From: Seonamhaeicola sp.
GTDB lineage: Bacteria > Bacteroidota > Bacteroidia > Flavobacteriales > Flavobacteriaceae
Length of the DNA: 64,000 bases
Assembly: GCF_028281565.1 (NCBI RefSeq)
Contig: NZ_JANQJQ010000021.1
Span: forward strand, 372,001 to 436,000
Reading direction: 5' to 3'
Shown here: one piece after another, positions 27,214 through 46,014 of the stretch
How the letters are laid out: each line of letters opens with the position of its first letter
How positions within the stretch are numbered: position 1 is the stretch's first letter
Program-made: the position numbers and the translations under genes
Notes under the pieces: model-generated
The model's database searches: none
Told to the model about the DNA's origin: nothing
What the model saw: only the letters and a program-made list of their open reading frames with translations

Positions 27214-27750
27214 TTAATTATTGGCGTGATTTTTTATTTCAATGATCAATTTCTTTCTAATGATCGATTTCTTATTATCCACAGTCTTTTTAGCAATTGA
27301 AAGGCGTTTGGAAATCTCTTCACTGTTATAGCCCTCGCAATGAAGCTTCCATAGTTCGTGTTCATTTTTGGTTAAACAGACCCTGTACATTTTTGTAATA
27401 TCATCGCTCTCAAGTTTATGGAATACCTCAGGCTTTACTACTTTTCCATTCACTATAGTGGCGGCATTTCCAACTGATTTTAATCTGTTGTTTTTAGTAT
27501 TCATATCCACCCAGGCATTTGAGGCTACTTTAAATAAATAGGCTTTAAAGTTTTTTATGCCCTTTTTGTGCTTTATCATCTTGAGCCAGGTTTCCTGCAC
27601 CAGCTCCCTGGCAATGTCCCTGCTCCTGGTTTTACCAACCAAAAACATAAACAAAGGATCATTGTATCTGTCTATCAACGCTTTGAGCGCAGCGGTGTCT
27701 CCATCTAAGTATTGGTCCCATAAGTGGTCACTTTGATCAGGTTTGGTCAT
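27214..27750 (-). CDS. RNA polymerase ECF sigma factor
   Basis: A 178-residue sigma-70 family protein. Region 2 covers about residues 22-90 ('ARELVQETWLKMIKHKKGIKNFKAYLFKVASN') and region 4 about 120-172 ('LTKNEHELWKLHCEGYNSEEISKRLSIAKKTVDNKKSIIRKKL'). There is no N-terminal extension. The downstream gene encodes a single-pass membrane protein, the standard sigma/anti-sigma order. Regulon members are unknown; the divergent small exported genes at 27910-29290 are candidates by position. Confidence 0.93.
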   Translation of the reverse strand: MTKPDQSDHLWDQYLDGDTAALKALIDRYNDPLFMFLVGKTRSRDIARELVQETWLKMIKHKKGIKNFKAYLFKVASNAWVDMNTKNNRLKSVGNAATIVNGKVVKPEVFHKLESDDITKMYRVCLTKNEHELWKLHCEGYNSEEISKRLSIAKKTVDNKKSIIRKKLIIEIKNHANN

Positions 27751-29537: not shown

Positions 29538-31106
29538 TTAGATTTTAGGATTTATTTTAAAGACGAAGGCGTGGTCTCCTGTTTTTTCAGGTAATTGAAT
29601 GTGCAGACCGTCGTCTTTAATTTCAAAGTTGAGGTTGCTTTCACCGCCTAACAAGTCAATAGATTTTATCTCTTTTGATAATAGATCATTGCCTTTTTTG
29701 AATGAGGTGATCACTAATTCGCTTCCTTCCGGCCAATCCAGAGCAATGGCGTAAAGCGTATCGCCTTTGGTTGTAAACCGAATATCTTTTGCCGTATTGT
29801 CGTCATTACTGCGCTCGCTTAAATGCCCTTCAACCACTTTGGCATCGCCTTCGCCGTAAATTTCAAATGTACGGGTGCCGTAAATGGCTTCACCGTTAAC
29901 TTTTAACCATTGGCCCATTTCCAATAGACGTTCTTTTACCGGCTCAGGAATCGTACCGTCCGCTCTGGGTGTAATGTTTAAAAGTACCGCGCCATTTTTA
30001 CTAACAACATCCACTAAAAAATCAATTAGTCTGTTGGTTGATTTGTAATCCGGGTCACTGATGTGGCACCAGGCTTTCCAATCGATAGAATCATCAGTTA
30101 ACCAGGGGAAATCCTTCTTCTCACTCATTCTGGCACGTTCCAGGTCGTAAACCGCACTTCCTTCAGCAAAATCATAGAATTTATAGGTAGACACTACTTC
30201 CTGTCCTTTCTTTTCAGCTTCGTTGTAATAATACTGTAAAAACGCTTTTCTGTGCGCTTCACTAACTATGTCCATTTTGTTGTCAAACCAAACTAAATCT
30301 GGGTCATATTTATCAATGATCTCTTTTAATCTGTTTAACCAGTCATCATTGAACGCTTGATCTGCCACGGGGTAATATTTTTCAATACCGTTGTCTATAT
30401 CGTGTTTGCTTCTCGGCATGACATTATCTCCTTTTTTCAATTTAGGACCGTAAAGACCGGCGTACTTTGGGTCTGAAGCATCTGTAGTTTCATCCCAGGT
30501 TGGATACCAGCCAAATAGCCATTGGCGGTGATAGGTAGCTATAAACTTCATGTCACGTTTGCGAATTTCTTTAGCTAACTCGCCCATAATATCACGTTTT
30601 GGCCCCATATCTTTGGCATCCCATTCGGTCAGTTCACTGTCCCACATGGCGAAACCATCGGCATGTTCGGAAACCGGCCCTGCAAATTTAGCACCTGCTT
30701 TTTGGAATAGATCGGCCCATTCCGCCGGATCAAATTTTTCGGCTTTAAACATCGGGATGAAATCCTTATAACCGAATTTATCCAACGGACCATAGGTTTT
30801 TACGTGATAGTCGTGAATCTCATGCGCTTTTCCATTTCTGGCTTCCGGGTTATCCGCGTTAACATACATCCAGTGGGCATACCATTCGGTTTCATAAGCA
30901 GGTACCGAATAGGGTCCCCAGTGGCAGTAGATACCAAATTTGGCATCTAAAAACCAATCCGGTGTTTTGTGTTGTTTTAACGATTCCCAGTCGGCTTCAT
31001 ACGTTATGGTGTCTTTTTTTGTTGCATTATCAGTTTCCTGTTTTTTTTCTTTTGATCCGCAAGACACTAAAATGACGGAAAGAAGCATTAATACATAGTT
31101 TTTCAT
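29538..31106 (-). CDS. GH29 alpha-L-fucosidase-type lipoprotein (copy 1)
   Basis: A 522-residue exported enzyme (lipobox LVSC). The GH29 barrel starts at about residue 38 ('ESLKQHKTPDWFLDAKFGIYCHWGPYSVPAYETEWY'). The catalytic nucleophile is Asp275 in 'LVWFDNKMD', and the substrate pocket histidines 'SEHADGF' and 'TYHRQW' are present. A C-terminal beta domain follows. GH29 enzymes remove alpha-L-fucose, and some act on alpha-L-galactose. It is the last gene of the minus-strand operon that starts at 38959, though 66 bases separate it from the next GH29. Confidence 0.93.
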   Translation of the reverse strand: MKNYVLMLLSVILVSCGSKEKKQETDNATKKDTITYEADWESLKQHKTPDWFLDAKFGIYCHWGPYSVPAYETEWYAHWMYVNADNPEARNGKAHEIHDYHVKTYGPLDKFGYKDFIPMFKAEKFDPAEWADLFQKAGAKFAGPVSEHADGFAMWDSELTEWDAKDMGPKRDIMGELAKEIRKRDMKFIATYHRQWLFGWYPTWDETTDASDPKYAGLYGPKLKKGDNVMPRSKHDIDNGIEKYYPVADQAFNDDWLNRLKEIIDKYDPDLVWFDNKMDIVSEAHRKAFLQYYYNEAEKKGQEVVSTYKFYDFAEGSAVYDLERARMSEKKDFPWLTDDSIDWKAWCHISDPDYKSTNRLIDFLVDVVSKNGAVLLNITPRADGTIPEPVKERLLEMGQWLKVNGEAIYGTRTFEIYGEGDAKVVEGHLSERSNDDNTAKDIRFTTKGDTLYAIALDWPEGSELVITSFKKGNDLLSKEIKSIDLLGGESNLNFEIKDDGLHIQLPEKTGDHAFVFKINPKI

Positions 31107-31172: not shown

Positions 31173-32732
31173 TTATAAATGCACTTTATACACCAAAACA
31201 TGTTCGTTTGGAACTGTATTTGGAGCTTTCAGGGTTAAGCCTTCATTTGTTTTAGACCATGTAATGGCTTCATTACTGCCAATGACTTCAACTGATGTTA
31301 TATTTTCATCAGCTCCAACACCATCTGATGCAAACGTTTTTAAAAGAAAGGTTGCACCTGGCTTGGGGATTGCTAACTGCGTTATGTAAATAACGTCTTT
31401 TGATTTGTTTTGGGTAAACCTAAAATCAGTTGTTTTATAGGTAACCCCATCACCTTGCACACCTCCAAAATGATTTTTTTTAAGTTTTGTACCGCCTTCT
31501 CCATAGGTTACATACGGGCGGGTTTCGTAAACCGCTTCTCCGTTAACATCCAGCCATTTTCCTATTTCCAAAAGCCCTTCTCTTTGTTTTTCGGGAATTT
31601 TACCATCGTGGGTAGGGGTTATATTTAGCAATAGACAACCATTCTTACTGGAAATATCTACCAGTTCCTGGATAATTATTGTTGGTGTTTTCAGGCGCAA
31701 ATCTTTTCTCCAACTCCAACCTGCCCAGGCATAAGAGTCGTCTGTTAGCCAGGGGAAATCTGTCTTTTCGTCAAACCTGCCTTTTTCAAGATCTAAAACA
31801 CCAACACCTTTTGCCAGGTCATTATTCTTATAGGTCAGTACAACCGGCTTGTTCCATGCTTCACCTTTGTTGTAATAATGAGCAACCATTTCCTGACGGT
31901 CTTTTTCAGGAAGCACGAATAATCTGCTATCAAACCAAAGTAAGTCCGGCTGATAGGTGTCCACAACTTCATAGATCTTAGTCTTCCAGGTGTCAATAAA
32001 CTTTTGCGAAGGTGCATATTTAGGATTTATTTTACCGGTAAATTGACCACTGGCTTCATGACCTCCTTTTAGGCTATGAAACGTTTCAGGGAGGGTTCTT
32101 TCTCCATAAAAGTCTTCAAAACCAACGGCGGTTGTATCAATTAAGCCACTCCAGGTATTATACCAACCCCATTCCCAGGAATGATGAAATGTAGCTACAA
32201 ACTTTAATCCTTCAGCTTTAATAGCTTTTTCCAATTCACCTACAATATCCCTTTTCGGGCCATAATTAACAGTATTGTACTTATTGACTTTACTATCCCA
32301 GTTAGAAAAATTGTCGCAATGTTCAGCCACGGGCCCAACATATTTTGCTCCGGAGGCTTTAAAAAGTTTAGCCCACTCCGTAGCATCAAAATGTTTGGCG
32401 GTAAATTTGTCAATAAAATCGTGATAGTGTACATCTTCACCATAGGTTTCCAAATGATGCGGTCTTATATCTTTACCCCAACCTTCATCTTTTACTTCAT
32501 ACATTTGCCTTGAATACCATTCACCCTTTCCCATATAGGAATATACTCCCCAGTGGAAATAAATACCAAATTTGGCATCCAAAAACCACTCCGGCGTTTT
32601 GTGTTGTTTTAGGGACTCCCAGTTTGCTTCGTAAGTTACCGAAGGCCTACTTGTAGCAGTATTTTGGTTTTTCTCATCGGATTTACAAGAAATACCTAAA
32701 ATGGCAATCAAAAGTAATATGTAGAACCTCAT
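31173..32732 (-). CDS. GH29 alpha-L-fucosidase-type lipoprotein (copy 2)
   Basis: From the ATG at 32732 the protein has 519 residues and a proper lipoprotein signal (ILGISC). A longer frame from 32825 would overlap the MaoC gene. The GH29 nucleophile is Asp268 in 'LLWFDSRLF', and 'AEHCDNF' and 'TFHHSW' line the pocket. The two neighbouring GH29 genes share the start 'YEA(D/N)WESLKQHKTP(D/E)WFLDAKFGIY' but differ widely later, so they probably have different linkage or sulfation preferences. It starts seven bases after maoC in the same operon. Confidence 0.93.
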   Translation of the reverse strand: MRFYILLLIAILGISCKSDEKNQNTATSRPSVTYEANWESLKQHKTPEWFLDAKFGIYFHWGVYSYMGKGEWYSRQMYEVKDEGWGKDIRPHHLETYGEDVHYHDFIDKFTAKHFDATEWAKLFKASGAKYVGPVAEHCDNFSNWDSKVNKYNTVNYGPKRDIVGELEKAIKAEGLKFVATFHHSWEWGWYNTWSGLIDTTAVGFEDFYGERTLPETFHSLKGGHEASGQFTGKINPKYAPSQKFIDTWKTKIYEVVDTYQPDLLWFDSRLFVLPEKDRQEMVAHYYNKGEAWNKPVVLTYKNNDLAKGVGVLDLEKGRFDEKTDFPWLTDDSYAWAGWSWRKDLRLKTPTIIIQELVDISSKNGCLLLNITPTHDGKIPEKQREGLLEIGKWLDVNGEAVYETRPYVTYGEGGTKLKKNHFGGVQGDGVTYKTTDFRFTQNKSKDVIYITQLAIPKPGATFLLKTFASDGVGADENITSVEVIGSNEAITWSKTNEGLTLKAPNTVPNEHVLVYKVHL

Positions 32733-32739
32733 CTGGTTT

Positions 32740-33192
32740 TTATTTTTCAAATGCCTTCTTTTTTGCCAACAGGATATGGTCGCAAACCAATACCAATTCA
32801 TCACGTTGGTTAAAGATCTCCACATGCTCGTTCACATGTCCTAAATGCGGGTGTTTAGAGTCTTTCTTTTCGCTTATGGTTACAACCACTCTGATGGTGT
32901 CACCAATATGTACGGGTTTAATGAAACGCAACCGGTCATAGCCTTTTGAAAATGCTTCGGGATTGATTTCCGTAGCGGTCATGCCGATGCCAACGGCAAA
33001 GGTCAAAGTCCCATGGGCAATACGTTGCTTGAATGGTTGGGTGGCACACCACTCTGCATCCATATGATGCGGGAAGAAATCACCGGTATGCCCTGCATGT
33101 ACCACAAAATCGGTTTCTGTAATGGTACGCCCTAAAGTTTCTCTTTTATGGCCCAGTTCATAGTCTTCGTAAAATTGTGATTTTATATGCAT
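32740..33192 (-). CDS. MaoC family (R)-hydratase/dehydratase
   Basis: A 150-residue cytoplasmic hotdog-fold protein. The hydratase 2 signature is '[33 protein letters not shown]', containing the expected D-x4-H catalytic pair. Family members hydrate or dehydrate 2-enoyl-CoA thioesters. It lies between a Gfo/Idh/MocA oxidoreductase (11 bases upstream) and a GH29 gene. With the CoA-transferases in the same operon this supports a CoA-thioester pathway for a sugar-derived acid; the acid is not known. Confidence 0.92.
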
Positions 33193-33203
33193 AATTTTTT
33201 CTT

Positions 33204-34274
33204 TTAAATATTATAAATGGGTGTAACTCCGCCGTCATTATTCGAATCGTAAGCGGCTTCAACAATGGCCATGGAATGCACTACATCCTCAACGCTGGTA
33301 TGAAGTACATCAGATGTCCCTTCGACATAGCGCATCAGAGAGGCCATAGTACCAACAAAGGCATCGGGGAACCAGGAACCTTCCAAATCAACTTCCTCCC
33401 ATTTTGGAGCTTCGCCTTCCTTTATAATACAATACTGAAAGAGGTCAGGTTTTCCGTTAGGATAATCCAATAGCAGGCCAATTCTGGCCTTAATAGCCCC
33501 TTTGGTACCTTCCCATTTTACAAAGCTTTCCTGGTTCTTTTCTCCAAAATTATGGTCGTGATTCGTATTGATAATGGCCCGCATGGAATCGCTGTAATCC
33601 ATAATGGTCGTGGTCCTGGTAGACGACATGGTTTTTGCAGGATTCTTTAGGGTTTTGGAATATACCTTTTTAGGGTTTCCTAAGAACGACCTTATTAAAT
33701 CTATGTAGTGAATACTGTGCTGTTGAATTTCCAAACGCGGATGATTCACCACATTAGGGAAGTATTCCCATGGCGTATAAATAGATAACCGGACTTCAAA
33801 GTCGTATAACTCGCCAATAAATCCATTTTCAATTAAATATTTTGCAGCCATGATATAAGGTGCGAAACGCATCTGGCAGTTGATAGCGGCTTTTAATTTT
33901 TTTCTACGACAGACTTCCAGGATCTCCAGGGTTTGTTCATAATAATCGCCCATAGGTTTTTGGATCAACACCGCAGCTTCATCCGGTAATAATTCAAGTG
34001 TTGCTACAAACTGATTGGGCATTAATGTTAAGTCGAACACAGCATTTTCCGGGGCATCTGCAATCATATCCTGAACAGAATCATACACATTGGGAATGTT
34101 AAACGTTTCTGCTACATCTATAGCACGTTGCTTAGTCCTATTGGTGATCCCGGCAACGTTAAAGCCTGCTTTTTTATAGGCAGGCAAATGGGCATCACGA
34201 ACAATACCACCGGCGCCAATAATGTAAATGGGCCTGTTTTCTTTAGGTAATTCCGGTTTATAAATTAATTCCAT
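33204..34274 (-). CDS. Gfo/Idh/MocA family oxidoreductase
   Basis: A 356-residue NAD(P)-dependent dehydrogenase. The Rossmann motif is '[20 protein letters not shown]' (residues about 18-37). The EKP motif of the family is replaced by QKP ('[11 protein letters not shown]', near residue 105), which may alter cofactor or substrate handling. '[16 protein letters not shown]' supplies the catalytic His. It probably oxidises a sugar or sugar acid that enters through the adjacent transporter. It starts two bases behind the first SBP-like gene, so the operon is very compact. Confidence 0.92.
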
Positions 34275-34276
34275 AA

Positions 34277-35509
34277 CTACATATTTTCTATTTGATCGAT
34301 TTCTTTTTGAGCCCTGTCCAAAATGGTTTTAATAGCTTCCGAAGTATTGATGACGTCTAAAACTAACTGATCAATCACATTGGCAATATCTGACCAATTG
34401 CTCTTTCTAGGTAATGATCTGGTATTTTGATGTAAAGCTTCTAATTTGTAATAATATGGTACTTCTTTGTTCACATCGGCGTCGTACCAGGTGGATTTTC
34501 TACAGCCGATAGCCCCTTCTAAAGTCAACAGTTTATCATTTTGGGCATTAACCGCAAACCTGATAAATTCATAGGCCAGATCCTTGTGTTTACTGCCACT
34601 GCCAATAACGTACATCCAGTAGGCATTTAAGGAAGCACCTTCGCCATTTGGTCCTGCCGGAACATTGGCTATATCTACTTTCCCTTTTACCTTAGAATCT
34701 TCTAAAAACTCGCACATAGAAGCAAACCCAAACCAATTGACCATCATAGCTAAATTGCCATTGGCAAACGCCATACCTGATTTTACCGAGTCAAAATCAC
34801 GTGAATCCGGGTGGATAGCATTGGTGTTTTTCAGGGCCTTTCGATAGAATGCCATGCCTTCAATGGCAGCATTTGAATTTAGTTTTATCTTTTTATTGTC
34901 ATCAAATAACTCACCACCCCGTGTCCAGAGTTGTAAACAAAAGTCAAAAACCGTGTTATGACCGTCAGGGTAAGCAGCAAAGGTGGTGCCGTATAAATTT
35001 TGTTCCGGCCTGTTGAAAAATTCAGCAATTTGCATGAGGTCCTCCCAGGTTTTGGGAATTTCCAGCGGTTTGCCATATTTACCGTAATAGTCAACACCCT
35101 CTTCTATCGATTCGAACAGGTCCTTTCTGTATATCAGGCATTCAGGGCCATTGTGAAAAGGAAGGGCAACGGTTTTATCATCAAACTCCTGCTTATAAAG
35201 TAAGGATCTTGACCATCCGTCCGGGAAATCTTCCGGAGGATCGTTTTCTATATATGGTGTTAAATTTTCTATTGCTTCCGAAGCATAGGCTTCAGTAATC
35301 CAATCGGTATTTATTAAAGATACGTCCCAAGTGCCCTTTTTTAAACCTTCGTCTTTTAGGATAGTATCGTATAAAGGATGCAAATCAAGAGGAACAGCTT
35401 CCAATGTTAAATCACAACCGGTTTCCGAACAAAACGCATCCCAGATTTTAGCTATGGTTGATTCAAAAGCATCAAATTTTCGTACCGCAATTCTGAATGT
35501 TTCTGCCAT
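34277..35509 (-). CDS. ABC-type sugar-binding-protein homologue without signal peptide (1)
   Basis: A 410-residue protein with the fold of extracellular solute-binding protein family 1 (maltose-binding-like). The first strand 'FRIAVRKFDAFESTIAKIWDAF' begins at residue 5 and 'IPKTWEDLMQIAEFF' and 'GYxxWTRGGE'-like segments follow. No signal peptide, lipobox or membrane segment precedes it, and the start codon overlaps the stop of the CoA-transferase gene by one base, so a longer exported form is unlikely. No ABC permease or ATPase gene is present in the window. It should therefore be cytoplasmic, perhaps as a subunit that binds the substrate for the adjacent CaiB protein. Confidence 0.88.
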   Translation of the reverse strand: MAETFRIAVRKFDAFESTIAKIWDAFCSETGCDLTLEAVPLDLHPLYDTILKDEGLKKGTWDVSLINTDWITEAYASEAIENLTPYIENDPPEDFPDGWSRSLLYKQEFDDKTVALPFHNGPECLIYRKDLFESIEEGVDYYGKYGKPLEIPKTWEDLMQIAEFFNRPEQNLYGTTFAAYPDGHNTVFDFCLQLWTRGGELFDDNKKIKLNSNAAIEGMAFYRKALKNTNAIHPDSRDFDSVKSGMAFANGNLAMMVNWFGFASMCEFLEDSKVKGKVDIANVPAGPNGEGASLNAYWMYVIGSGSKHKDLAYEFIRFAVNAQNDKLLTLEGAIGCRKSTWYDADVNKEVPYYYKLEALHQNTRSLPRKSNWSDIANVIDQLVLDVINTSEAIKTILDRAQKEIDQIENM

Positions 35510-36654
35510 TATTCCGGAATTAATTCGTTTATGATACTTTGCGTATGCTCACCCAGTGCAGGGGAACCTAAAGGTGATTTCAAAATATCACCGTCAATTC
35601 TAATGGGGCAACGTGTGGTTTCGTATTCAAAGCCATCTCCCATTCTGACATTCTGGATCATATCCAGGACTTTAAAGCCTTCCAATTCAAAAAGCTCCTC
35701 CCAATTCATAACACTGGCACACCAAATATCGGCAGGTTCTAAAATAGATAACCAATGTTCGGTATTTTCCTGTAAAAGAGTAGTTGCCAGTAAATCTTTA
35801 ATTTCATCCCTTCGGTCATACCAACTTGCAACCTCCTGAAACTCAACCAGCTTGCCGTTGCCCAGTAATTCCCCTAAAAAAGGAATGGAGCCCATAGCCA
35901 GTGCCAGGTATCCATCAGCTGTTTGGTAAACCCCATAAGGAGCTCCTAAATAAGCATGAGCACTATTGCTTTTAGGACGGATAGTTGGCTGACCGCCATC
36001 GTGATAAAATGTGGTGATAGATTCAAATTGGAAGTCTAAAATAGATTCCAGCATACTCACGGATACTTTACTGCCTTCCCCGGTTTTAGAACGTTTTAAC
36101 AAGGCCGCTAAAATACCTTGCACTAAATGGGCTCCTGATAAAATATCGGCGATGGCCAAACCAATAGGCGTGGGGCCATTGCCCTCATTGCCGCTCAACC
36201 AGGTCAAACCGGATAAAGATTGCAATAATAGATCCTGACCAGGTTTTGATGCCCATGGGCCTTCAGAACCGTATCCTGAAATTTCGCCGTAAACTATTCC
36301 TGGGTTTATTTTTTTAATAATGTCATAATCCAGGCCAAGTCTATCAATAACACCCGGACGGAAATTATGAACCAACACGTCGGCTTGCTCTATGAGTTTT
36401 AAAACACGTTGTTTGTCAATGTCGTTTTTTAAATCGGCCTGAAAGCTTTCCTTGTTTCTGTTGATCGCTCTAAAAACAGAGGATTCTCCATTTAAAATAG
36501 TATTTGAAACATATAATTGACGGCAAATATCACCAGTTTCAGGACGTTCAACTTTAATCACGCGAGCTCCCAGATCGGCTAATCGCAATGTTGCCGAAGG
36601 CGCTGATAAAAACTGGCTTAAGTCTATAATTAATATATCTTCTAATGGTTTCAT
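35509..36654 (-). CDS. CaiB/BaiF family CoA-transferase (1)
   Basis: A 381-residue class III CoA-transferase. '[20 protein letters not shown]' near the N-terminus and '[17 protein letters not shown]' are typical. Asp170 in 'AIADILSG' aligns with the catalytic aspartate of formyl-CoA transferase and CaiB. The enzyme should transfer CoA between carboxylic acids. It is one of two adjacent paralogues (about half identical by eye); class III enzymes act as interlocked dimers, so a heterodimer of the two is possible. It overlaps the SBP-like gene by one base. Confidence 0.93.
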
Positions 36655-36660
36655 ATGTTA

Positions 36661-37803
36661 CTATAGATTAAATTCTTTGATAATGTCTTCAGTATGCTGA
36701 CCTACTCTTGGGGCGGGCTTACTTGCAAAAACACGCTCATCATTCACCCGAATAGGACAACGTGTAGTATGCACTTCCTCACCCGAAAGTAATTGTAGTT
36801 TTTGGTCCCATTGTAATACTTTATAGGCATCATGATTCAATAAGGTTTTATAATCAAAAACATCTGAGCACCAAATACCTTCTTGTTCCAAAATATCAAG
36901 CCAATGGGCCGTAGTTTCTTTTATTAGGAAGGAACGCAGGATATCCATGATGTCATCACGTTTTGTGAACCAGGAATCTGAATCTGTATATTCGGCTAAT
37001 TTATCGCATTGCAATACCTCGCCAAGTTTTAGCAGGGATCCCATGGCTAAGGCCAAATAACCATCTTTGGTTTTGTAAATACCGTAAGGCGCCCCCAGAT
37101 AAGCATGTGCAGACCCTTGCTTAGCCCGTACCGGTTGTTGGTTTCCGTCGTTTAAATAGGTTGTGATCACTTCAAACTGAAAATCTAAAGTAGATTCCAA
37201 TAAACTGACTTCAACCAAAGCTCCTTGCCCGGTTTTTTCTTTTCTAATAAGGCTTGCCAAAATACCATGTGCCAGATGCGTTCCGGTTATTAAATCAGAT
37301 AAAGCAGCACCTACCGGAACAGGATTATCGTCTTTATTACCGGTTAAGTTGGCGAAACCCGACATACACTGGATTAAAAGATCCTGCCCCGGTTTTTTAG
37401 CCCAGGGCCCAACAGTGCCGTATCCGGTAACGGTGGCATAGACCAATTTTGGATTTAGTTGTTGAACTGTGTTGTAATCCAAACCTATTTTTTCCATAAC
37501 ACCCGGACGAAAATTATGGGTCATCACATCCGCCTGTGCAATGAGTTTTTTTACACGTTCTAAATCGTCTGGGTCTTTCAGATTGGCAGCATAAGAATCT
37601 TTATTTCGGTTTACAGTATGAAACACTAAACTGCTTCCGTCTAAAAATAAATTTTTTAATGCAATTTGTCTTCCGGCTTCTCCTTCAACGGGTCTTTCAA
37701 TTTTAATAACGCGTGCTCCAAGGTCGGCCAATTTTAAACCGGCCGAAGGCCCTGCCATAAATTGTGCAAACTCTAATACTAAAAGTCCTTCTAATGGTCG
37801 CAT
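36661..37803 (-). CDS. CaiB/BaiF family CoA-transferase (2)
   Basis: A 380-residue paralogue of the preceding CaiB protein. It has the same start pattern ('[20 protein letters not shown]', '[17 protein letters not shown]') and the catalytic Asp170 in 'ALSDLITG'. It is placed six bases before CaiB(1) and four bases after the second SBP-like gene, so the order is SBP-CaiB-CaiB-SBP. Donor and acceptor acids are unknown. Both copies keep the catalytic aspartate, so neither is an obvious inactive partner. Confidence 0.93.
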
Positions 37804-37807
37804 TTCT

Positions 37808-38959
37808 TTAGATTTCTAACGATTTTTTATACAATTCATTTAATTGAGAAAGTAAGGCTTTTTCATCGCCGCCGTTGATCAGGTACTCCCTTATTGGAGC
37901 ACCGGCTCTATCCTGAAAATACATATGTCCGTTATAACGTGGTCTTAAAAATGCCCGGTCTAATGCCGGTAATGTATTTTTAAAGAAATCGGCTGATGCT
38001 TCGTTGGTATGTGCATCGGTCCAGGCTTTTCTGTGTCCCGGTTGTCCGCCATTATCAAAGAATACCGTTTTTTGACAGGCTTCAGAACCCGTATACTCTA
38101 CATATTTCATTACGGTTTCTATGGCTTTCGATTGAGCCGAAACGGCCAAACCGGTACCTCCTAAAGTTGAGATAGCACCAACACCATTAATTTCTACCAT
38201 ATCATGGAAGTGTAGCAATTTACGGGCATAGCCTTCTCTGCTGTAATTTGTATAGCCATAGGCCCAGGGACAATAAGCGTATGTATCAGTTTGAGTCATA
38301 GCTTCATAGATTTGAATGGGGTTCCAGTCAAATATTTGAGTATCCATTTCAACTGCCAATGTTCTTAACATTTTTAATGCTCTCACACCAATTTCTTCAC
38401 TAACAACGTAGTCAGAAGATGTACAAACCTCTTCGCCTAAATTACAGCACATCATGTAGAAATTCATTAAAGTGTCTTGAGGTATCCCTGGCATAATGAC
38501 CAGCCCTTGTTTGGCAAGTGCTAATAAATCATCATAGGTTTCAGGTAATTTTAACCCCTTTTCTTTAAATATGTCCGGACGACTGGAAGCCACTGGTGTA
38601 GCGGCATCAACTGCCAGAGCCCATTGATGTCCGTTAGACGAATAACTTTCGTGTGAACGCCCCACCGTATTATCTTCGAGGTCTTTCAAAAAATCTTTAG
38701 GAAGGTATTCATCTAAAGGTAAGATTACATTATTTTTTCCTGCAAACCCTGCCCAGGGATGATCAATGATCAGTAAATCGTATCGTTTTGCCAATTGATC
38801 AATGGGTTCATCTGCGAACGCCTGTAACGAACGCTTCTCCCAAACAATATCTACATTTGGGTTTAATTCACAAAAACGTTGCGCTGTGGCTACCACAGAA
38901 GTAAATCCTCTACTGTGGTTCCATGTAATTCCTTTTAATTGTACACGCTCTGTACTCAT
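37808..38959 (-). CDS. ABC-type sugar-binding-protein homologue without signal peptide (2)
   Basis: A 383-residue family 1 solute-binding-protein homologue. The fold starts almost at once ('[26 protein letters not shown]'), with '[15 protein letters not shown]' in the middle and '[24 protein letters not shown]' late. There is no signal sequence. It contains six cysteines, including '[11 protein letters not shown]', unusual for a periplasmic binding protein in this group and consistent with a cytoplasmic location. It is clearly divergent from the first copy. It is the first gene of the operon, with a 235-base gap to rhaT upstream. Confidence 0.87.
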
Positions 38960-39194: not shown

Positions 39195-40265
39195 TTAATG
39201 ACCGTTTGTAACATCTGTTCCCAATTTACTGCCATAAGCAATGATGATGAATGAGACCACCAAAACCACTAATGCGATTACCAATGTAAAATAGGTGCGT
39301 TTGGTAACTTGTTTCCATTCTTTTAGTACAATGCCCACTACATAGCTGAAAAAGATAAGCATAGACATATGTAATACCCAACTGGCAAATTTGTAAGCCC
39401 CCATTTGTACATGTCCAATACCGTAGAAAAAGAACTGCCCATACCATAAGGCCCCGCTTAAAACGGACATTCCCAAGTTTAGATAGTAGTTCTGTTTGCC
39501 AACACCTTTAATGTCAACAAGCTCTTTTAAAGTTTTGTTCTTTATACCGACAACAGTAAACCATATAAAGTTGGTTATGAATGCGCCTCCGGTTGAGAGG
39601 ATCAGGTTGGCATTTCCTTCAAAGTTTCCGGCACCATAGTCACCTGCAATCTGCGCCACAGGGTCTCCAACTTCTAAAGAAATACCAAAAACAGCCGATA
39701 ATACTCCCGCAATAATGGTCAGTGTTAGCCCTTTTTTCATGTTGAAGGTGAGAGGTTCACCACCATTGGCGTTATTATTTTTTAGATCTTTTTCCTTTCT
39801 GTATCCCGCAACCCCACAAATAATGATACCAATTAAAGCCATAAACATACCGAAGAAAATGGTGTAACCTCCCGGCCCATTAAGTTTTTCCATAAAAGTA
39901 CCGTGCATAATTAAGGGTACAATGGTTCCTAAAATGGCTGATATTCCAATAGAAATGGTATAGGTTAGGGAATAACCTATGTGACGTATGGCAAAACCAA
40001 AACACATGCCGCCAAAACCGTAAATGGCACCTAAAAGTGTGGCGTTAAATAATACTTCGGAAGAGGCATCATTAAAAACATCCATTAAGTTAGGCACTGT
40101 TAAAAAACCAATTAGGAATGGAAAAATAAACCATGCAAAAGAGGCCTGAACGATCCAGTAGGAGTCCCAGGACCATTTTTTTACTTTCTGAAATGGGACA
40201 TAGCAGGTAGATGCGGCAACACCTCCTACAGCATGAATTAAGGTTCCTAAAATTGGATTTGCCAT
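39195..40265 (-). CDS. RhaT-like sugar:proton symporter
   Basis: From the ATG at 40265 the protein has 356 residues and ten hydrophobic helices. It is homologous to L-rhamnose-proton symporter RhaT ('GTLIHAVGGVAASTCYVPFQKVKKWSWDSYW', 'GAIYGFGGMCFGFAIRHIGYSLTYTI'). RhaT homologues import 6-deoxy sugars, so L-rhamnose, L-fucose or a related sugar freed by the exported enzymes is a sensible cargo. A longer frame from 40322 would add residues that overlap the iclR promoter. It is divergent from iclR and its promoter region contains a candidate IclR operator. Confidence 0.92.
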   Translation of the reverse strand: MANPILGTLIHAVGGVAASTCYVPFQKVKKWSWDSYWIVQASFAWFIFPFLIGFLTVPNLMDVFNDASSEVLFNATLLGAIYGFGGMCFGFAIRHIGYSLTYTISIGISAILGTIVPLIMHGTFMEKLNGPGGYTIFFGMFMALIGIIICGVAGYRKEKDLKNNNANGGEPLTFNMKKGLTLTIIAGVLSAVFGISLEVGDPVAQIAGDYGAGNFEGNANLILSTGGAFITNFIWFTVVGIKNKTLKELVDIKGVGKQNYYLNLGMSVLSGALWYGQFFFYGIGHVQMGAYKFASWVLHMSMLIFFSYVVGIVLKEWKQVTKRTYFTLVIALVVLVVSFIIIAYGSKLGTDVTNGH

Positions 40266-40283
40266 AATATTTGGTTTAGTTGA

Positions 40284-40314
40284 TTTATATGCAAAAATAT
40301 ATTTTATATATGAA
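40284..40314. promoter_or_regulatory. Candidate IclR operator 1 (rhaT/iclR intergenic)
   Basis: TTTATATGCAAA, seven bases, TTTATATATGAA. The arms are inverted imperfectly, and both match the arms of the perfect repeat at 41220-41250 (11 of 12 and 10 of 12) at the same spacing. It sits 19 bases before the rhaT start and 54 bases before the iclR start. Confidence 0.6.
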
Positions 40315-40367
40315 GTAAACAAAAAATTGGAATAGTTTTATTAATATTGTGTAATTCAATAAACAAA

Positions 40368-41135
40368 ATGGCAGATAGTAACACAGTAAAATATAATGCC
40401 CCGGCATTAGATAAAGGATTAGATATTTTAGAATACCTATCAAAAGAGGGTATTCCTTTAACCCAGGCAGAGATCGCCCAGGGTATTAACAGAACACCTA
40501 GTGAAATTTACAGGATGCTGGTTTGTTTAGAAGAAAGAGGCTATGTTGTAAGAGGCGTTAATGCCGGGAAATACCGGCTTTCATTAAAAATGTATAGCCT
40601 ATCTCATACCCATACGCCTTTTGATGAATTAAAACGTGTAGCGCGTTATCCCATGCAATTGCTTTCCGAAAAAACAAGACAATCCTGCCATTTGAGCATT
40701 ATGAATAATGACCAGTTGTTGGTAATCTCCCAGGTTAGAAGTCCGAGTGCTGTTTCTTTATCTATAGAAGAAGGTACGCACTTTCCATTGTCTATGACTT
40801 CTTCCGGAGTGACTATTTTATCCATGTTTTCAAAGAAAAGACGCAAAGAAATTCTATCCAGAGATACCCATTTCAAGGCATGGGATAAAGACAAACGAGA
40901 AGCCTTGAATACTGAAATAGATAAGGTGGCAGAAATGGGATACCGTTATTCCGATAGTAAGCTGACCAGTGGTGTTACGGATATTGCTGTCCCCATTGGG
41001 AACAAATCCGAGTTAAGAGCCGTATTAGCTATTTCAGTGTTTAGCTCAACCTTACACGAAGAGTTGAATGTAGACACCATCATTTCTAACCTCAAACAGA
41101 CCCAGGAAGATATCAATAAATTAATTGGAGGTTAG
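40368..41135 (+). CDS. IclR family transcriptional regulator
   Basis: From the ATG at 40368 the protein has 255 residues. An N-terminal winged helix ('PALDKGLDILEYLSKEGIPLTQAEIAQGINRTPSEIYRML') is followed by the GAF-like effector domain ('FPLSMTSSGVTILSMF', 'YRYSDSKLTSGVTDIAVPI'). IclR-type regulators commonly control sugar-acid catabolism and respond to a pathway intermediate. It lies between rhaT (divergent) and the GH2-ECH-ALDH genes (same strand), both with a matching inverted repeat in front. Confidence 0.94.
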   Translation: MADSNTVKYNAPALDKGLDILEYLSKEGIPLTQAEIAQGINRTPSEIYRMLVCLEERGYVVRGVNAGKYRLSLKMYSLSHTHTPFDELKRVARYPMQLLSEKTRQSCHLSIMNNDQLLVISQVRSPSAVSLSIEEGTHFPLSMTSSGVTILSMFSKKRRKEILSRDTHFKAWDKDKREALNTEIDKVAEMGYRYSDSKLTSGVTDIAVPIGNKSELRAVLAISVFSSTLHEELNVDTIISNLKQTQEDINKLIGG

Positions 41136-41291: not shown

Positions 41292-43769
41292 ATGAAAAAC
41301 ATTAGTCAGGAAGAGAAAGATTATCTACAGGGAGATGGTAATACTTCAAATGAAAAAATCATATTGGACCTTACGGGTAATAATTGGCAAATGGAGGGGA
41401 TTCGTCCCGGAGAAGGTGTTAAAATTGGCTTCCATGAATTAAATTTTGATATTACGGGAGACTCTTTTAACTGGATTTATGCCAAGGTTCCGGGTGATGT
41501 GTATACCGATTTATGGCGAGCGGGCAGATTAGATGATCCGCACTTTGGCAGAAACAGTTTAAAAGCTAAATGGGTTCCGGAACATGAGTGGTGGTACAAG
41601 CGTCAGTTTGATGTTCCCAAAGAAATGGAAGGAAAGCATATTCAATTGGTTTTTGATGGGGTTGATTTTGCCTGTGATGTGTGGCTTAACGGGGCGTTTT
41701 TAGGAACGCATGAAGGCATGTTCTCTAAATTCAAATTTGATGTGTCAAATACGATTCGTTTTGAGCGTTTACGTTTCGGAACCAATGTGCTAATGGTGCG
41801 TTTACATCCGGCGCCAAGACGATACAGTCAGGTGGCGGGTAGAAAACCAGCCTGGCATGGTGACTATTGGGTGAGTTTGCCGCCAACAGGTATCTGGAAG
41901 CCCGTTTATTTGGAAGCCATGGGAACGGTGACGGTTGAAGATACTTATGTGAAGCCAACTATAGGTTCTGAAAATTCAGCTAAACTGGATGTAGAAATCG
42001 AATTAGAGAATCATGAGGATACAGATAAAACAGTTGAGCTAAAAGTTGAAATTGAAGGAGAAAACTTTGATTCCAAAGTATATGAAACTACTAAAGAAGT
42101 TTCGGTACCAAAAGGAACAGGTAAATTCGAATTAAATTTGGATATTGATGAGGCGAAACTATGGTGGCCCTGGGATTTAGGGGACCAAAATTTATATACG
42201 GCTAAAGTGACGGTTACTGAAGATGAGGTGCTTCATGATGAGACTACTACCTCATTTGGGATTAGAGAAGTAAAAATGGAACATAATCCCGGGTTTACCA
42301 AAGATCAGGTAGAAAATCCATGGACCGTGATGATCAATGGGAAACGCCACTTCATGCGTTCCGGAACCTGGGGTGGCCCACCGGATATTTTTATGGGACG
42401 AGCTCATAAAAGCAAATACAAAGAACTGATCCGGTTAGCTAAGGAAGCCAATTTTAACAACCTGAGGATTTTTGGCTGGCATCCAGAAGAGATTCCCTAT
42501 TTCTACCAATTGTGTAACGAAGCCGGTATTACGGTTTGGCAGGATGTGTTACCGTTGGCAAGCTTATCATTGCCAAAAGACGAAGCATTTAAGCAAGCTG
42601 TATTTGCGGAAGCCATAGTGTCTGTAAAAGAGCAACGCAATCACCCTTGTATTGTATTATTGGAAGGTTCCGAGGAGTTGTTTATGACGGCTTCAGATCC
42701 TCAACACAACTTGAATTTTGTAAACGAATTGGGTGAAGCTATCAAACCATATACACCATTACATTATATTCCGTCGTCTCCTTTAAGTGATGAGGTTGGA
42801 TTGAACTTAGGTTTCAAACCAAATGAAAGTTATCACGCCAACGACTTGTTTTATGGAGAAGGTGAGTTTGTGATGGAAGATTATTTTCCAAGCCTGGATT
42901 ATGCAGTTATTCCGGAATTAGCGATTTCGTCTTGTCCGAATGTAGATAGTATTAAAAAATTCATTCCGGAAGAGGAGATTTGGCCTCCGGGGCCAAGTTG
43001 GGGACATCATTGGACGGATTTCGATGCTTTAAGAACCTTGAACTTTGAAGTGTTAGGCGATCAATCTAGGGATGGTTTTGAAAAATTTGTGGAAGCCACT
43101 CAAATAGCACAAGGCGTTATTTTTCAATATGCCCTGGAACACTTCAGAACCAGAAAGCCCAAAACCAGTGCTATTTGTATTTGTCACTACATCACGTTTG
43201 CACCCGATATGAAATGGGGTATTGTGGATTATTATCAGGAAAAGAAACTGTCATTTGATCATGTTAGAAAAGCCTATCAACCGGTATTACTTACCATGAA
43301 ACATTATAACCGACGTTGGTTACCCGGAGATGCCTTTAAAGGTGAGCTTTGGGTGGTTAATGATTATTATCAATCCTTCAGCAATTGTAAAGCAACCATC
43401 AAATTCCTGGATAATAACAAAACGGTTATCAAAGAGGAAAGTTTTAACTTTGATGACATAGTAGGTGATAGTTCAGCTAAATTTGCGGATGTATCCTGTA
43501 CGGTTCCCGGTGATTTGGGAGATAAATTCTATGTAGAAATGACCTTAGCTGATGCTTCCGGAAATATCCTTTCAGAAAATGACTATATGCTATTGGTAGC
43601 TGATAAAGTGAAAGACAAAGCCGAATTAAGAGCCATTGGGCTGGATGCGTTTGACATCAAACAAAAGTATGGATGGGCCAATTATTTTAGGTATTATCCA
43701 GGTTTGGGCGCCGAAGAAGGCACCAAAGAAGCCGATGAAGCTATGCCAACCGCCAGAGGTTTTAAATAA
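41292..43769 (+). CDS. Cytoplasmic GH2 glycoside hydrolase, beta-mannosidase-like
   Basis: An 825-residue GH2 protein without signal peptide, so it should act on imported oligosaccharides. It has a sugar-binding jelly roll ('GVDFACDVWLNGAFLGTHEGMF', about 122-145), an immunoglobulin-like domain, then the barrel ('LRIFGWHPEEIPYFYQLCNEAGITVWQD'). The usual acid/base Asn-Glu is Ser-Glu here (Ser460-Glu461 in 'LLEGSEEL'), and the nucleophile glutamate is probably Glu542 in 'IPELAISS' rather than the usual SE(F/Y)G. These changes suggest an unusual substrate or a shifted mechanism. It heads a GH2-ECH-ALDH operon. Confidence 0.9.
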   Translation: MKNISQEEKDYLQGDGNTSNEKIILDLTGNNWQMEGIRPGEGVKIGFHELNFDITGDSFNWIYAKVPGDVYTDLWRAGRLDDPHFGRNSLKAKWVPEHEWWYKRQFDVPKEMEGKHIQLVFDGVDFACDVWLNGAFLGTHEGMFSKFKFDVSNTIRFERLRFGTNVLMVRLHPAPRRYSQVAGRKPAWHGDYWVSLPPTGIWKPVYLEAMGTVTVEDTYVKPTIGSENSAKLDVEIELENHEDTDKTVELKVEIEGENFDSKVYETTKEVSVPKGTGKFELNLDIDEAKLWWPWDLGDQNLYTAKVTVTEDEVLHDETTTSFGIREVKMEHNPGFTKDQVENPWTVMINGKRHFMRSGTWGGPPDIFMGRAHKSKYKELIRLAKEANFNNLRIFGWHPEEIPYFYQLCNEAGITVWQDVLPLASLSLPKDEAFKQAVFAEAIVSVKEQRNHPCIVLLEGSEELFMTASDPQHNLNFVNELGEAIKPYTPLHYIPSSPLSDEVGLNLGFKPNESYHANDLFYGEGEFVMEDYFPSLDYAVIPELAISSCPNVDSIKKFIPEEEIWPPGPSWGHHWTDFDALRTLNFEVLGDQSRDGFEKFVEATQIAQGVIFQYALEHFRTRKPKTSAICICHYITFAPDMKWGIVDYYQEKKLSFDHVRKAYQPVLLTMKHYNRRWLPGDAFKGELWVVNDYYQSFSNCKATIKFLDNNKTVIKEESFNFDDIVGDSSAKFADVSCTVPGDLGDKFYVEMTLADASGNILSENDYMLLVADKVKDKAELRAIGLDAFDIKQKYGWANYFRYYPGLGAEEGTKEADEAMPTARGFK

Positions 43770-43775
43770 AAACGT

Positions 43776-44540
43776 ATGTTTAGATTTAATAAAAATGATA
43801 GATTAGGAATCATAACCCTTAGCAAGCCGCCCGCTAACAGTTATGACATTCATTTCTTTAAGGAGTTCGAACAGCTCTTAAGCACTATTGAAACCGATTC
43901 CGATATAGCCGTGGTATTACTTAAAAGTGATATTCCGAAGTTCTTTTCGGCCGGAGCCGACATCAAAGTGTTTCAAAGTAATACCGTGGAGCAGAATAAG
44001 GAGATGGTAGTGATGGTCAACAAAATAGCTGCCGGTATCAGTACGAGTTCAAAAATATTTGTCGCTTTTTTAAACGGGCATACCTTGGGAGGCGGATTGG
44101 AATTAGCCTTAGCCTGTGATATTAGATTGGCATCCCATAAAAAGTTCTTATTGGGCTTACCCGAAGTTAAATTAGGCTTAATGCCCGGGAATGGAGGTAT
44201 TCCCCGTTTAGTAAACGCAGTTGGTGTTTCAAAAGCATTTGAGCTGGTAGTTTCAGGTAATACTATTGATTCGGAAGAAGCTTATAGAATTGGATTGGTC
44301 AATCAGCTTTATGAGGAAGCGAACGCCGAAGCACAAGCTTTGGACTATGCTATTAACCTATCGAAAGGGCCTAAAATAGCTATGGCTACCATAAAACAGA
44401 CATTTTCAGAAGGTATAGGGAAAGGTCTGGAGGATTTTTTGGAACTTGAAAAGAAACAAGTGGGTACCCTTTATGATACCTATGATGCCAAAGAAGGCTT
44501 TTTGGCTTTCGTAGAAAAGCGAACACCTGAATTTGAATAA
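43776..44540 (+). CDS. Enoyl-CoA hydratase/isomerase family protein
   Basis: A 254-residue crotonase-fold protein. The CoA-binding and oxyanion segments are '[10 protein letters not shown]' and '[20 protein letters not shown]', and '[18 protein letters not shown]' supplies the second oxyanion region and the acidic residue. It should hydrate, isomerise or split a CoA thioester. It starts six bases after GH2 and ends 16 bases before the aldehyde dehydrogenase. It complements the MaoC and CoA-transferases of the opposite-strand operon. Confidence 0.93.
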
Positions 44541-44556
44541 TAAACAACTAAACACT

Positions 44557-46014
44557 ATGAGTCAAACTAATATTAAACATTATCCCTGTTACATTAACGG
44601 GGAATGGTTAGATAGTTCTGTAAGAGAAGTTATTGAAGTTGAAAACCCGGTTGATAACAACGTGTTCGCAACCGTAACATCTTGTACTAAGGAAGATGTG
44701 CAACATGCTTTGGAAACTTCGGAAAAGGCGCAGAAGGCCTGGGAACTTACTCCCGCAAATACAAGGGCCCAACATATTTATGAAATTGCCAATAAGTTAA
44801 AGGCAGAACGAGAAAACTTCGCTAAGCTTTTGGTGATGGAACAAGGAAAAACTTATGCAGAAGCCTTAGGGGAGGTTGATGATACGGTCACCTATATGAC
44901 CTATTCAGCGGAAGCCGCTCGTAGAATTCAAGGGGCTATTTTCCCGGCTGAAGCAAAAAATATCAGGCTTTCAATTCACAAAGTGCCTTATGGTGTAACA
45001 GTTGGACTGTGTGCCTTTAACTATCCGTTGGCATTAATTGGAAGAAAAGTGGGGCCGGCTTTGGCAACAGGAAATACCATGATCATAAAGCCGCATGAAT
45101 TAACACCTATAACGGCATCGGAGTTTTGTAGATTGGTGGATGAATCCAGTCTTCCAAAAGGGGTTATCAATATGGTGTCCACTAAAACAGCCGATGCTGC
45201 TTCGTTATTAGTGGAAAGTCCTATTACGAAGCTGATTTCTTTAACAGGAAGTACAAGAGCCGGAAGGGCCATGTATAGAGCTGCTGCTGAAAATATTACC
45301 GGATTGATTTTGGAATTGGGAGGGAAAGCACCGTTTATAGTCTGTGAAGACGCTGATATAGACAAAGCTGTTGAAGCTGCCGTTATTTCCCGTTATGCAA
45401 ATTGCGGACAGGTTTGTATCTGTAATGAAATGGTTTTTGTAGATGAAAAGGTAGCGGATGAGTTTACTGAAAAAGTAGTGAAAAGAACCCAACAGATTAA
45501 AGTAGGGGATCCCTTTGATGCTGCGGTCGCCATGGGGCCCAATGTAAGTACCTTAGGATTGAATAGAGTGGACGATTTGGTTAAACAAAATATTGAACAA
45601 GGCGCAGAATTATTACTGGGAGGTGGCAGACCCGAAGGGGCCTATTTTGAAAAAGGAAACTGGTATACACCTACCATTTTAGGCAATGTAAAAGGCGACG
45701 GTGCGACGGTAAGTCAGGAGTTATTTGCCCCTGTTATGCCTATTGTGAAGGTTGGCGGTTTTGAAGAGGCCGTAGCTTTGGCTAATGACAGGGAAGAAGG
45801 GCTGTCTGCTTATTTGTATTCCAATGACTATAGGGTACATCAAAAGGCTATTGATACTATGGAAGTGGGGACTATTTTTATCAATCAGCAAATCATAGGA
45901 AATATTCAAGGCTATCATTCGGGGCATAAGACGTCCGGAATTGCCGGAGAAGATGGTATTTATGGTGTGGATCATTACCTTCAAAAGCGTACCATTTATT
46001 TAAATTACGAATAG
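44557..46014 (+). CDS. NAD(P)-dependent aldehyde dehydrogenase
   Basis: A 485-residue ALDH-superfamily enzyme from the ATG at 44557. The general base is Glu253 in 'LELGGKAP' and the nucleophile is Cys287 in 'NCGQVCIC'. It resembles lactaldehyde/succinate-semialdehyde dehydrogenases (AldA type). In fucose and rhamnose catabolism AldA oxidises lactaldehyde, a possible role here, but other sugar aldehydes cannot be excluded. The nearby CoA genes suggest that the acid product may be activated to a CoA thioester. Confidence 0.93.

Follow-up and report, generated by a model that had tools for sequence, protein, structure and literature searches.

Why are genes for relatives of the substrate-binding proteins (SBPs) of ATP-binding cassette (ABC) sugar transporters placed in one operon with genes for coenzyme A (CoA)-transferases? 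This question is raised by a 64,000-nucleotide stretch of the genome of Seonamhaeicola sp. (positions 372,001 to 436,000 of contig NZ_JANQJQ010000021.1), which is referred to as the window in this study. In the window, the genes for two SBP homologs, SBP1 and SBP2, enclose those for two class III CoA-transferases, CaiB1 and CaiB2. The source genome is 5.27 Mb in 48 contigs and contains only two CaiB genes, both of which are in this operon. The sequence comparisons of this study support well a cytoplasmic location of SBP1 and SBP2 and the pairing of SBP1 with CaiB. The presence of cytoplasmic SBP and CoA-transferase genes in several phyla points to an undescribed breakdown route for sugars such as fucose. 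The genes of the operon are:

37808..38959, minus strand: SBP1, predicted cytoplasmic family-1 SBP-fold protein of 383 amino acid residues (PF01547, 42.4 bits)
36661..37803, minus strand: CaiB1, class III CoA-transferase (PF02515, 325.1 bits)
35509..36654, minus strand: CaiB2, class III CoA-transferase (PF02515, 319.5 bits)
34277..35509, minus strand: SBP2, second predicted cytoplasmic SBP-fold protein, of 410 amino acid residues (PF01547, 101.2 bits)
33204..34274, minus strand: Gfo/Idh/MocA-type oxidoreductase, Gfo (PF01408, 45 bits)
32740..33192, minus strand: MaoC-type hydratase/dehydratase, MaoC (PF01575, 78.6 bits)
31173..32825, minus strand: GH29 alpha-L-fucosidase, putative sugar supply (PF01120, 312.6 bits)
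29538..31106, minus strand: GH29 alpha-L-fucosidase, putative sugar supply (PF01120, 335.4 bits)

The order SBP-CaiB-CaiB-SBP with gaps of 4, 6, and -1 bases, followed by the genes for Gfo, MaoC, and two GH29 enzymes, had been described before from the DNA letters alone (the sequence-only reading), and the coordinates of the open reading frames (ORFs) and their Pfam matches showed it to be exact. The listed start of the GH29 gene at 31173-32825 overlaps the MaoC gene, and an internal methionine with a lipoprotein-like segment looks like the true start.

Both SBP1 and SBP2 exceeded the cut-off of Pfam SBP_bac_1 (PF01547), which is 26 bits. Their export signals were judged by a hydrophobicity scan of the N-termini, not by SignalP, and upstream in-frame starts were also allowed. 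Given that both ORFs open at the first ATG/GTG/TTG following a stop codon, no upstream start is hidden. Homologs were collected with a genome scan that confirmed at least 563 stretches encoding SBP1 relatives, counted without deduplication, from which the best 80 loci were kept. The 79 named loci of this study are those of the 80 in which an SBP1 ORF was called; L132 was dropped because a longer ORF masked its SBP1, and its two CaiB genes were visible. A hydrophobic N-terminus was found in none of 79 SBP1 proteins (those of the window and 78 named loci), none of 11 plasmid SBP1 proteins, and none of 48 SBP2 proteins, with SBP2 of L085 and SBP1 of L142 left out of the counts by a motif filter. 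All 17 control SBPs possessed a hydrophobic N-terminus when upstream starts were allowed, as did 16 of the 17 at the listed start, and their separation from SBP1 and SBP2 was complete. A missed signal peptide or start was ruled out by the first-start ORFs and the absent hydrophobic N-termini, and the earlier claim that the two SBPs are signal-less held, with no signal-like segment in any of the 138 family proteins counted.

No ABC gene was found among the 51 scanned of the 56 window ORFs of at least 120 amino acid residues. The whole genome contains five PF00528 permeases, the sole one on this contig being ~400 kb distant, and its one other SBP_bac_1 gene, on contig C47, is beside permeases and an ATPase. 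None of the 79 named loci had a match to two reference permeases, and an ATPase-like match was present in two of them, each more than 5 kb away. These scans of the window ORFs and the genome ruled out a hidden ABC transporter, in agreement with the sequence-only reading, which had reported neither an ABC permease nor an ATPase nearby.

The pair of SBP1 and CaiB was conserved well beyond this genome. SBP1 was followed directly by a CaiB gene of the same strand in 78 of the 79 named loci; only in L158 was it not, and the 5.7-kb contig of this locus ends ~0.9 kb past SBP1. Of 70 SBP1-CaiB1 pairs, 52 had a gap of at most 10 bases, and an overlap of 4 bases was the commonest arrangement. Among the sampled relatives, SBP1 matches were found in 12 of 98 genomes, the window's own included, and CaiB was near SBP1 in 11 of 13 further relatives' loci, all but L036 and L037. 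Among Bacteroidota, SBP1 was found in 19 of 395 genomes at E <1e-140, and the next matches began at 4e-16; the 11 of these weaker matches that were examined were SBPs with a hydrophobic N-terminus. In the phylum sample, CaiB was near SBP1 in 16 of the 17 loci inspected besides those of the window and G007, L080 being the exception. Moreover, 145 plasmid records, mostly of Sinorhizobium, matched SBP1, and CaiB was near SBP1 in 16 of the 17 plasmid loci scanned, all but L240. A single-genome accident was ruled out by the SBP1 matches across relatives, Bacteroidota, the genome scan, and plasmids. One of the loci, L129, is that of Zobellia uliginosa DSM 2061.

The SBP1-CaiB pair also recurred in Gammaproteobacteria, in Alphaproteobacteria, where it was mostly reversed, and on a Streptomyces plasmid. 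The order was SBP1-CaiB in Bacteroidota, Hirschia (L141), and L239, and CaiB-SBP1 in 13 plasmid loci, of which 12 were alphaproteobacterial and one was from Streptomyces. Given that the order is reversed in many plasmid loci, the adjacency outlives rearrangement. In Methylobacterium nodulans the order was MaoC-CaiB-SBP1-AMP-binding protein, which adds further CoA chemistry. In Sinorhizobium meliloti ABS7, the CoA-transferase gene overlaps SBP1 by 4 bases, and both are annotated as whole. The clusters of Nitratireductor, Pararhizobium, Roseibium, Shinella, and Qingshengfaniella contained a complete annotated ABC transporter with its own SBP in addition to the CaiB-SBP1 pair. These five transporters have their own exported SBPs, which argues against SBP1 as the transporter's receptor. 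In Microvirga, an SBP1 relative is accompanied by such a transporter as well, but CaiB is missing. Distant SBP1 relatives (28–34% identity) were found at L037:9324-12538 and L240:4922-8979, with no CaiB nearby; their neighbors included lactonase, short-chain dehydrogenase/reductase (SDR), FAH, RraA, and mandelate-racemase-type or mannonate-dehydratase-type genes, and a NIPSNAP gene adjoins the SBP1 relative in L037. Conserved SBP-CaiB adjacency, which had been named as a means of checking the sequence-only reading, was thus found, and none of the findings that would have spoken against it (an upstream signal peptide, ABC genes close by, or absent co-occurrence) came true. Its inference that SBP homologs were re-used inside the cell is well supported by the missing signal peptides, the missing ABC genes, and the strong co-occurrence.

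Structure prediction of both SBPs yielded the complete, full-length fold of family-1 sugar SBPs with a mean predicted local distance difference test (pLDDT) score of 93. The AlphaFold2 model of SBP1 (pLDDT 93.2, 73 alignment rows) had its best Protein Data Bank (PDB) match in 5iai with a template modeling (TM) score of 0.83, and that of SBP2 (pLDDT 92.8, 42 alignment rows) in 6dtq with a TM score of 0.87. The top 50 Foldseek matches listed for each model were binding proteins throughout and included no enzyme of the periplasmic binding protein (PBP) fold. Asp118, Trp287, and Arg356 of the 6j9w family were used as reference ligand-site residues, their ligand role being inferred from the PDB titles of mutants. 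In HMMER alignments, SBP1 has Ala120, Thr269, and Arg339 at these sites, so that the arginine is kept and the aspartate and tryptophan are lost, and SBP2 has Gly121 at the position of the aspartate and retains the tryptophan. SBP1 also retains Asp66, a Gly-Gly pair (267-268), and Arg339 of sugar SBPs. Ala120 of SBP1 and Gly121 of SBP2 are invariant small residues, and SBP1 possesses an invariant Asp118 two residues before Ala120. Thr269 of SBP1 is invariant across the 73-row alignment and variable in a wider one of 21 rows. The cleft thus appears changed yet conserved, which would fit a new ligand and a new reaction equally well. In a tree with 17 other SBPs, SBP1 (36 rows) and SBP2 (13 rows) each formed one clade with support of 99/97 and 96/99, respectively; a joint origin of the cytoplasmic SBPs was neither supported nor rejected in a smaller tree (approximately unbiased (AU) test, p 0.508), and long branches limit these trees.

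Similar to the family-1 (PF01547) SBPs of ABC sugar transporters, such as 5iai, MalE3 of T. maritima (6dtq), and SmoF (7nbz), SBP1 and SBP2 share the full-length fold and the Pfam family. Different from them, SBP1 and SBP2 have neither a signal peptide nor a transporter partner, carry alanine or glycine in place of the ligand aspartate, and are encoded beside CaiB and Gfo. Similarly, CaiB1 and CaiB2 matched PF02515 (cut-off 23.3 bits) over their full length and keep the catalytic aspartate, as do known class III CoA-transferases such as 9br6, YfdE (4hl6), and formyl-CoA transferase (1p5h). The nearest solved relative of CaiB1 is the succinate–hydroxymethylglutarate CoA-transferase 9br6. Unlike the known enzymes, however, CaiB1 and CaiB2 are paired with SBPs, and they scored far under the cut-offs of all seven NCBIfam models that they matched.

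Catalytic function relies on an aspartate in class III CoA-transferases, an aspartate and a histidine in MaoC, and two glutamates in enoyl-CoA hydratases (ECH). Catalytic residues were examined in five enzyme sets of the named loci, which were CaiB1, CaiB2, MaoC, ECH, and aldehyde dehydrogenase (ALDH). The aligned aspartate was present in 71 of 71 CaiB1 and 79 of 79 CaiB2 homologs, Asp38 and His43 in all 41 MaoC homologs, both aligned glutamates in all 29 ECH homologs, and Cys295 in all 27 ALDH homologs.

ECH and ALDH belong to a second module of the window, which is divergent from the SBP-CaiB operon and follows the gene of an IclR-type regulator in the plus-strand order IclR, GH2, ECH, and ALDH. 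The genes between SBP1 and the end of this module are:

39195..40322, minus strand: RhaT-type sugar:proton symporter, upstream of SBP1 (PF06379, 197.3 bits)
40347..41135, plus strand: IclR-type regulator, divergent (PF01614 and PF09339)
41292..43769, plus strand: GH2 enzyme, first gene of the divergent second module (PF22666, PF00703, and PF17786)
43776..44540, plus strand: enoyl-CoA hydratase, ECH (PF00378, 174.2 bits)
44533..46014, plus strand: aldehyde dehydrogenase, ALDH (best NCBIfam match PRK10090, 451.9 bits, cut-off 500)

Comparison of the named loci revealed two versions of the operon. One contains SBP2, Gfo, and MaoC with a fucose/rhamnose-type symporter, and the other contains ECH and ALDH. 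Among the 79 named loci, SBP2 was present in 48, Gfo in 47, MaoC in 41, ECH in 29, and ALDH in 27; two loci had both gene sets and four had neither. SBP2 and Gfo shared 47 loci, and ECH was present in two of the 48 loci with SBP2. Moreover, all 48 SBP2 loci hold a symporter, which is of the FucP type in 31 and of the RhaT type in 17; FucP was found in these 31 loci only, and the RhaT type in 20 loci altogether. An IclR homolog was present in 40 loci, and 20 loci contained a GH2 homolog with at least 40% identity. The two versions are largely exclusive, SBP2 travels with Gfo, and ECH and ALDH at 43776-46014 are part of the same system; the two versions, the SBP2-Gfo association, and the membership of ECH and ALDH had all been missed by the sequence-only reading. 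The window carries both versions, separated by the IclR gene. MaoC and ECH differ in fold and catalyze the same kind of reaction, suggesting that one thioester step was solved twice. The symporter at 39195..40322, which scored under the cut-offs of its NCBIfam models, is probably the importer for the operon. No signal sequence is evident at the listed start of the GH2 enzyme (41292-43769), and its gene is linked to ECH and ALDH, suggesting an intracellular glycoside as the substrate.

The sugar that enters this system was approached through the company that the operon keeps in other genomes. The oxidative (non-phosphorylated) pathway of L-fucose and L-rhamnose includes fucose dehydrogenase, fuconolactonase, a dehydratase, a dehydrogenase, and an FAH hydrolase. 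Genes of this pathway are neighbors of the operon in Flavobacterium, and their co-occurrence with it extends across family boundaries. To our knowledge, the known oxidative routes of fucose and rhamnose include neither a CoA step nor a cytoplasmic SBP. In the flanks of the operon of the Flavobacterium genome G264 (L073), not in the window itself, L-fucose dehydrogenase (FucosDh, 357.3 bits, cut-off 300) and fucP (364.1 bits, cut-off 280.4) scored over their cut-offs; this region also encodes a GH141-type protein that includes a mutarotase domain. Of 160 Flavobacterium genomes, those with SBP1 all had the FAH hydrolase (25 of 25), vs. 13 of 135 of those without SBP1 (Fisher p 5e-20). The fuconolactonase family was found in 23 of 24 genomes with SBP1 and 3 of 20 without it (p 3e-8), in a hand-picked set of 44 genomes from which those with only an SBP1 type of 35% identity were left out; G202 is the SBP1-containing genome without this family. 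The lactonase of the window's genome is on another contig. The earlier suggestion of a sugar-acid CoA pathway fits these data insofar as the catalytic residues are kept and lactonase, FAH hydrolase, and fucose permease genes accompany the operon elsewhere. We take L-fucose or a sugar close to it as the best candidate for the substrate, although FucP-type and RhaT-type symporters accept other sugars too.

We favor, with about even confidence, the explanation that the operon provides a CoA-thioester branch for the oxidative catabolism of a (6-deoxy)sugar, with L-fucose or a close relative as the most likely substrate. Enzymes whose genes are located elsewhere in the genome would first oxidize the imported sugar to a lactone and then open the lactone to yield a sugar acid. 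CaiB1 and CaiB2 would transfer CoA from an acyl-CoA donor to the sugar acid, MaoC (ECH in the other version) would add or remove water on the thioester, Gfo (ALDH in the other version) would oxidize an intermediate, and the transferase would hand the CoA on to the next molecule. SBP1 and SBP2 would derive from binding proteins of ABC transporters, would have lost the export signal, and would keep the sugar acid or its lactone bound in the cytoplasm for CaiB and for Gfo, respectively. We infer the substrate, the order of steps, the physical hand-over by the SBPs, and their mode of action as carrier, subunit, or enzyme; the roles of SBP1 as the substrate holder of CaiB and of SBP2 as that of Gfo are less certain than the CoA loading, hydratase, and dehydrogenase steps. 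More tentatively, and at somewhat less than even confidence, the SBPs may be obligate substrate-presenting subunits, SBP1 of CaiB and SBP2 of a Gfo-type sugar-acid dehydrogenase, in a CoA-thioester deoxysugar route of Bacteroidota, Pseudomonadota, and Actinomycetota.

Several observations weigh against the favored explanation. CaiB was absent near SBP1 in four loci (L036, L037, L080, and L240), so the SBP1 fold can serve without CaiB in cis, and in L080 (2976-11044) SBP1 is near genes for L-rhamnose isomerase, a bifunctional rhamnulose-1-phosphate aldolase/dehydrogenase, IclR, and GH29. On pSymB of S. meliloti 1021 (L225:6839-9131), the CaiB match extends across two reading frames, and the pair may be broken in this strain; CaiB and SBP1 stand alone there, neither MaoC nor ECH being matched within 17 kb. 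The fuconolactonase-family protein of G264 scored 267.6 bits vs. a cut-off of 400, and its FAH-type hydrolase was also under the NCBIfam cut-off. Among the 44 hand-picked genomes, fuconolactonase matched at E 1e-30 in 26 and over the curated cut-off in none, and the co-occurrence counts ignore relatedness. Finally, a mandelate-racemase-type gene is also present in each of the five alphaproteobacterial clusters that have an ABC transporter; the CoA branch may accordingly supplement the main route instead of forming it.

The loci without CaiB bear on the possibility that SBP1, and SBP2 as well, are themselves enzymes, in which case the PBP fold would have evolved into a lyase, dehydratase, or isomerase for the sugar acid or its CoA ester. 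Similar to what is proposed here for SBP1 and SBP2, a binding-protein fold works inside the cell in MqnA/MqnD of menaquinone synthesis and in prephenate dehydratase. L036, L037, and L240, but not L080, place SBP1 relatives among genes of the sugar dehydrogenase, lactonase, FAH, or dehydratase type, and the replacement of the ligand aspartate by invariant Ala120 or Gly121, together with Asp118 of SBP1, would be in keeping with catalysis. However, genes for a hydratase and a dehydrogenase are already beside the SBPs, and the precedent enzymes are outside the 50 Foldseek matches listed for either model; an enzymatic role is judged somewhat unlikely. The fact that SBP-fold proteins bind ligands reversibly suits the idea that the SBPs act in the cytoplasm as sensors or buffers and control the pathway, perhaps together with IclR, without taking part in catalysis. 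The IclR homolog in 40 of the 79 named loci would agree with this idea, but the other 39 had no IclR match, and the SBP genes overlap those of CaiB and Gfo, not that of a regulator, making this role improbable. That SBP1 and SBP2 are orphan exported SBPs with mis-assigned starts, which serve an ABC transporter elsewhere, is hardly credible. Although their Pfam family and fold are those of ABC-transporter SBPs, no upstream start, hydrophobic N-terminus, or nearby permease was found, as described above, and the five clusters that do contain an ABC transporter use a different SBP.

Another possibility concerns the pathway and not the SBPs. The operon might replace the sugar-acid dehydratase, with CaiB activating L-fuconate, MaoC or ECH dehydrating the thioester to 2-keto-3-deoxyfuconyl-CoA, and CaiB recovering the CoA; the product would feed a dehydrogenase and the FAH hydrolase. 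In line with it, the examined Flavobacterium loci contain, beside SBP1, fucose dehydrogenase, lactonase, FAH, and mostly a fucose permease, and no recognized dehydratase. Five of the 25 SBP1-containing genomes (G555, G559, G572, G592, and G616) were without a strong mandelate-racemase-type or FAH-linked UxaA-type protein, whereas 11 of the 13 genomes with FAH and without SBP1 do have a mandelate-racemase-type or UxaA-type protein. IlvD-type proteins, however, were checked in 11 genomes, none of which was among these five. Moreover, the other 20 of the 25 SBP1-containing genomes also carry a candidate dehydratase of the mandelate-racemase or UxaA type, and the alphaproteobacterial clusters have the mandelate-racemase-type gene mentioned above. 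The simple form of this idea, in which the operon makes up for a missing fuconate dehydratase, was weakened by these candidates and by the linkage of a UxaA-type protein with the second copy of FAH, and we consider a dehydratase replacement unlikely. The UxaA/galactarate-dehydratase-like protein of Flavobacterium (L224:11534-13189 and L221:12500-14227; TIGR03248 291 bits, cut-off 731) is encoded near an FAH hydrolase and a fucose-dehydrogenase-like SDR, and it is a candidate for the L-fuconate or L-rhamnonate dehydratase, although such an enzyme would not be expected in this family.

The SBP-CaiB operon is surrounded within the window by genes for sulfatases and for GH88, GH16, GH3, and GH43 enzymes, and a third GH29 gene is at 60817-62364, which brings the GH29 fucosidases of the window to three. 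Judged from these gene families, the region is probably devoted to a sulfated polysaccharide that contains fucose. In addition, a CHAT-domain protein with many TPR repeats is encoded at 23303-26428, near a sigma-70-region-2 gene at 27214-27750, and a single protein encoded at 7968-10235 combines weak multihaem cytochrome matches with HEAT and TPR repeats.

A literature search by titles and abstract openings, whose coverage left out most subscription papers, found no publication on the SBP1-CaiB gene pair. Where public annotation names SBP1-type proteins, they are called "extracellular solute-binding protein" or "ABC transporter substrate-binding protein", which classes a cytoplasmic protein family among the transport proteins. 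The culturable carriers Z. uliginosa DSM 2061 and S. meliloti ABS7 make the favored explanation testable. If it is true, CoA chemistry would operate on sugar acids in marine and soil bacteria that possess enzymes for fucose-rich polysaccharides, and a receptor of transport would have been recruited to metabolism. Should the SBPs turn out to be obligate subunits, the operon would represent a new kind of system, beyond a variant of catabolic operons with class III CoA-transferases.

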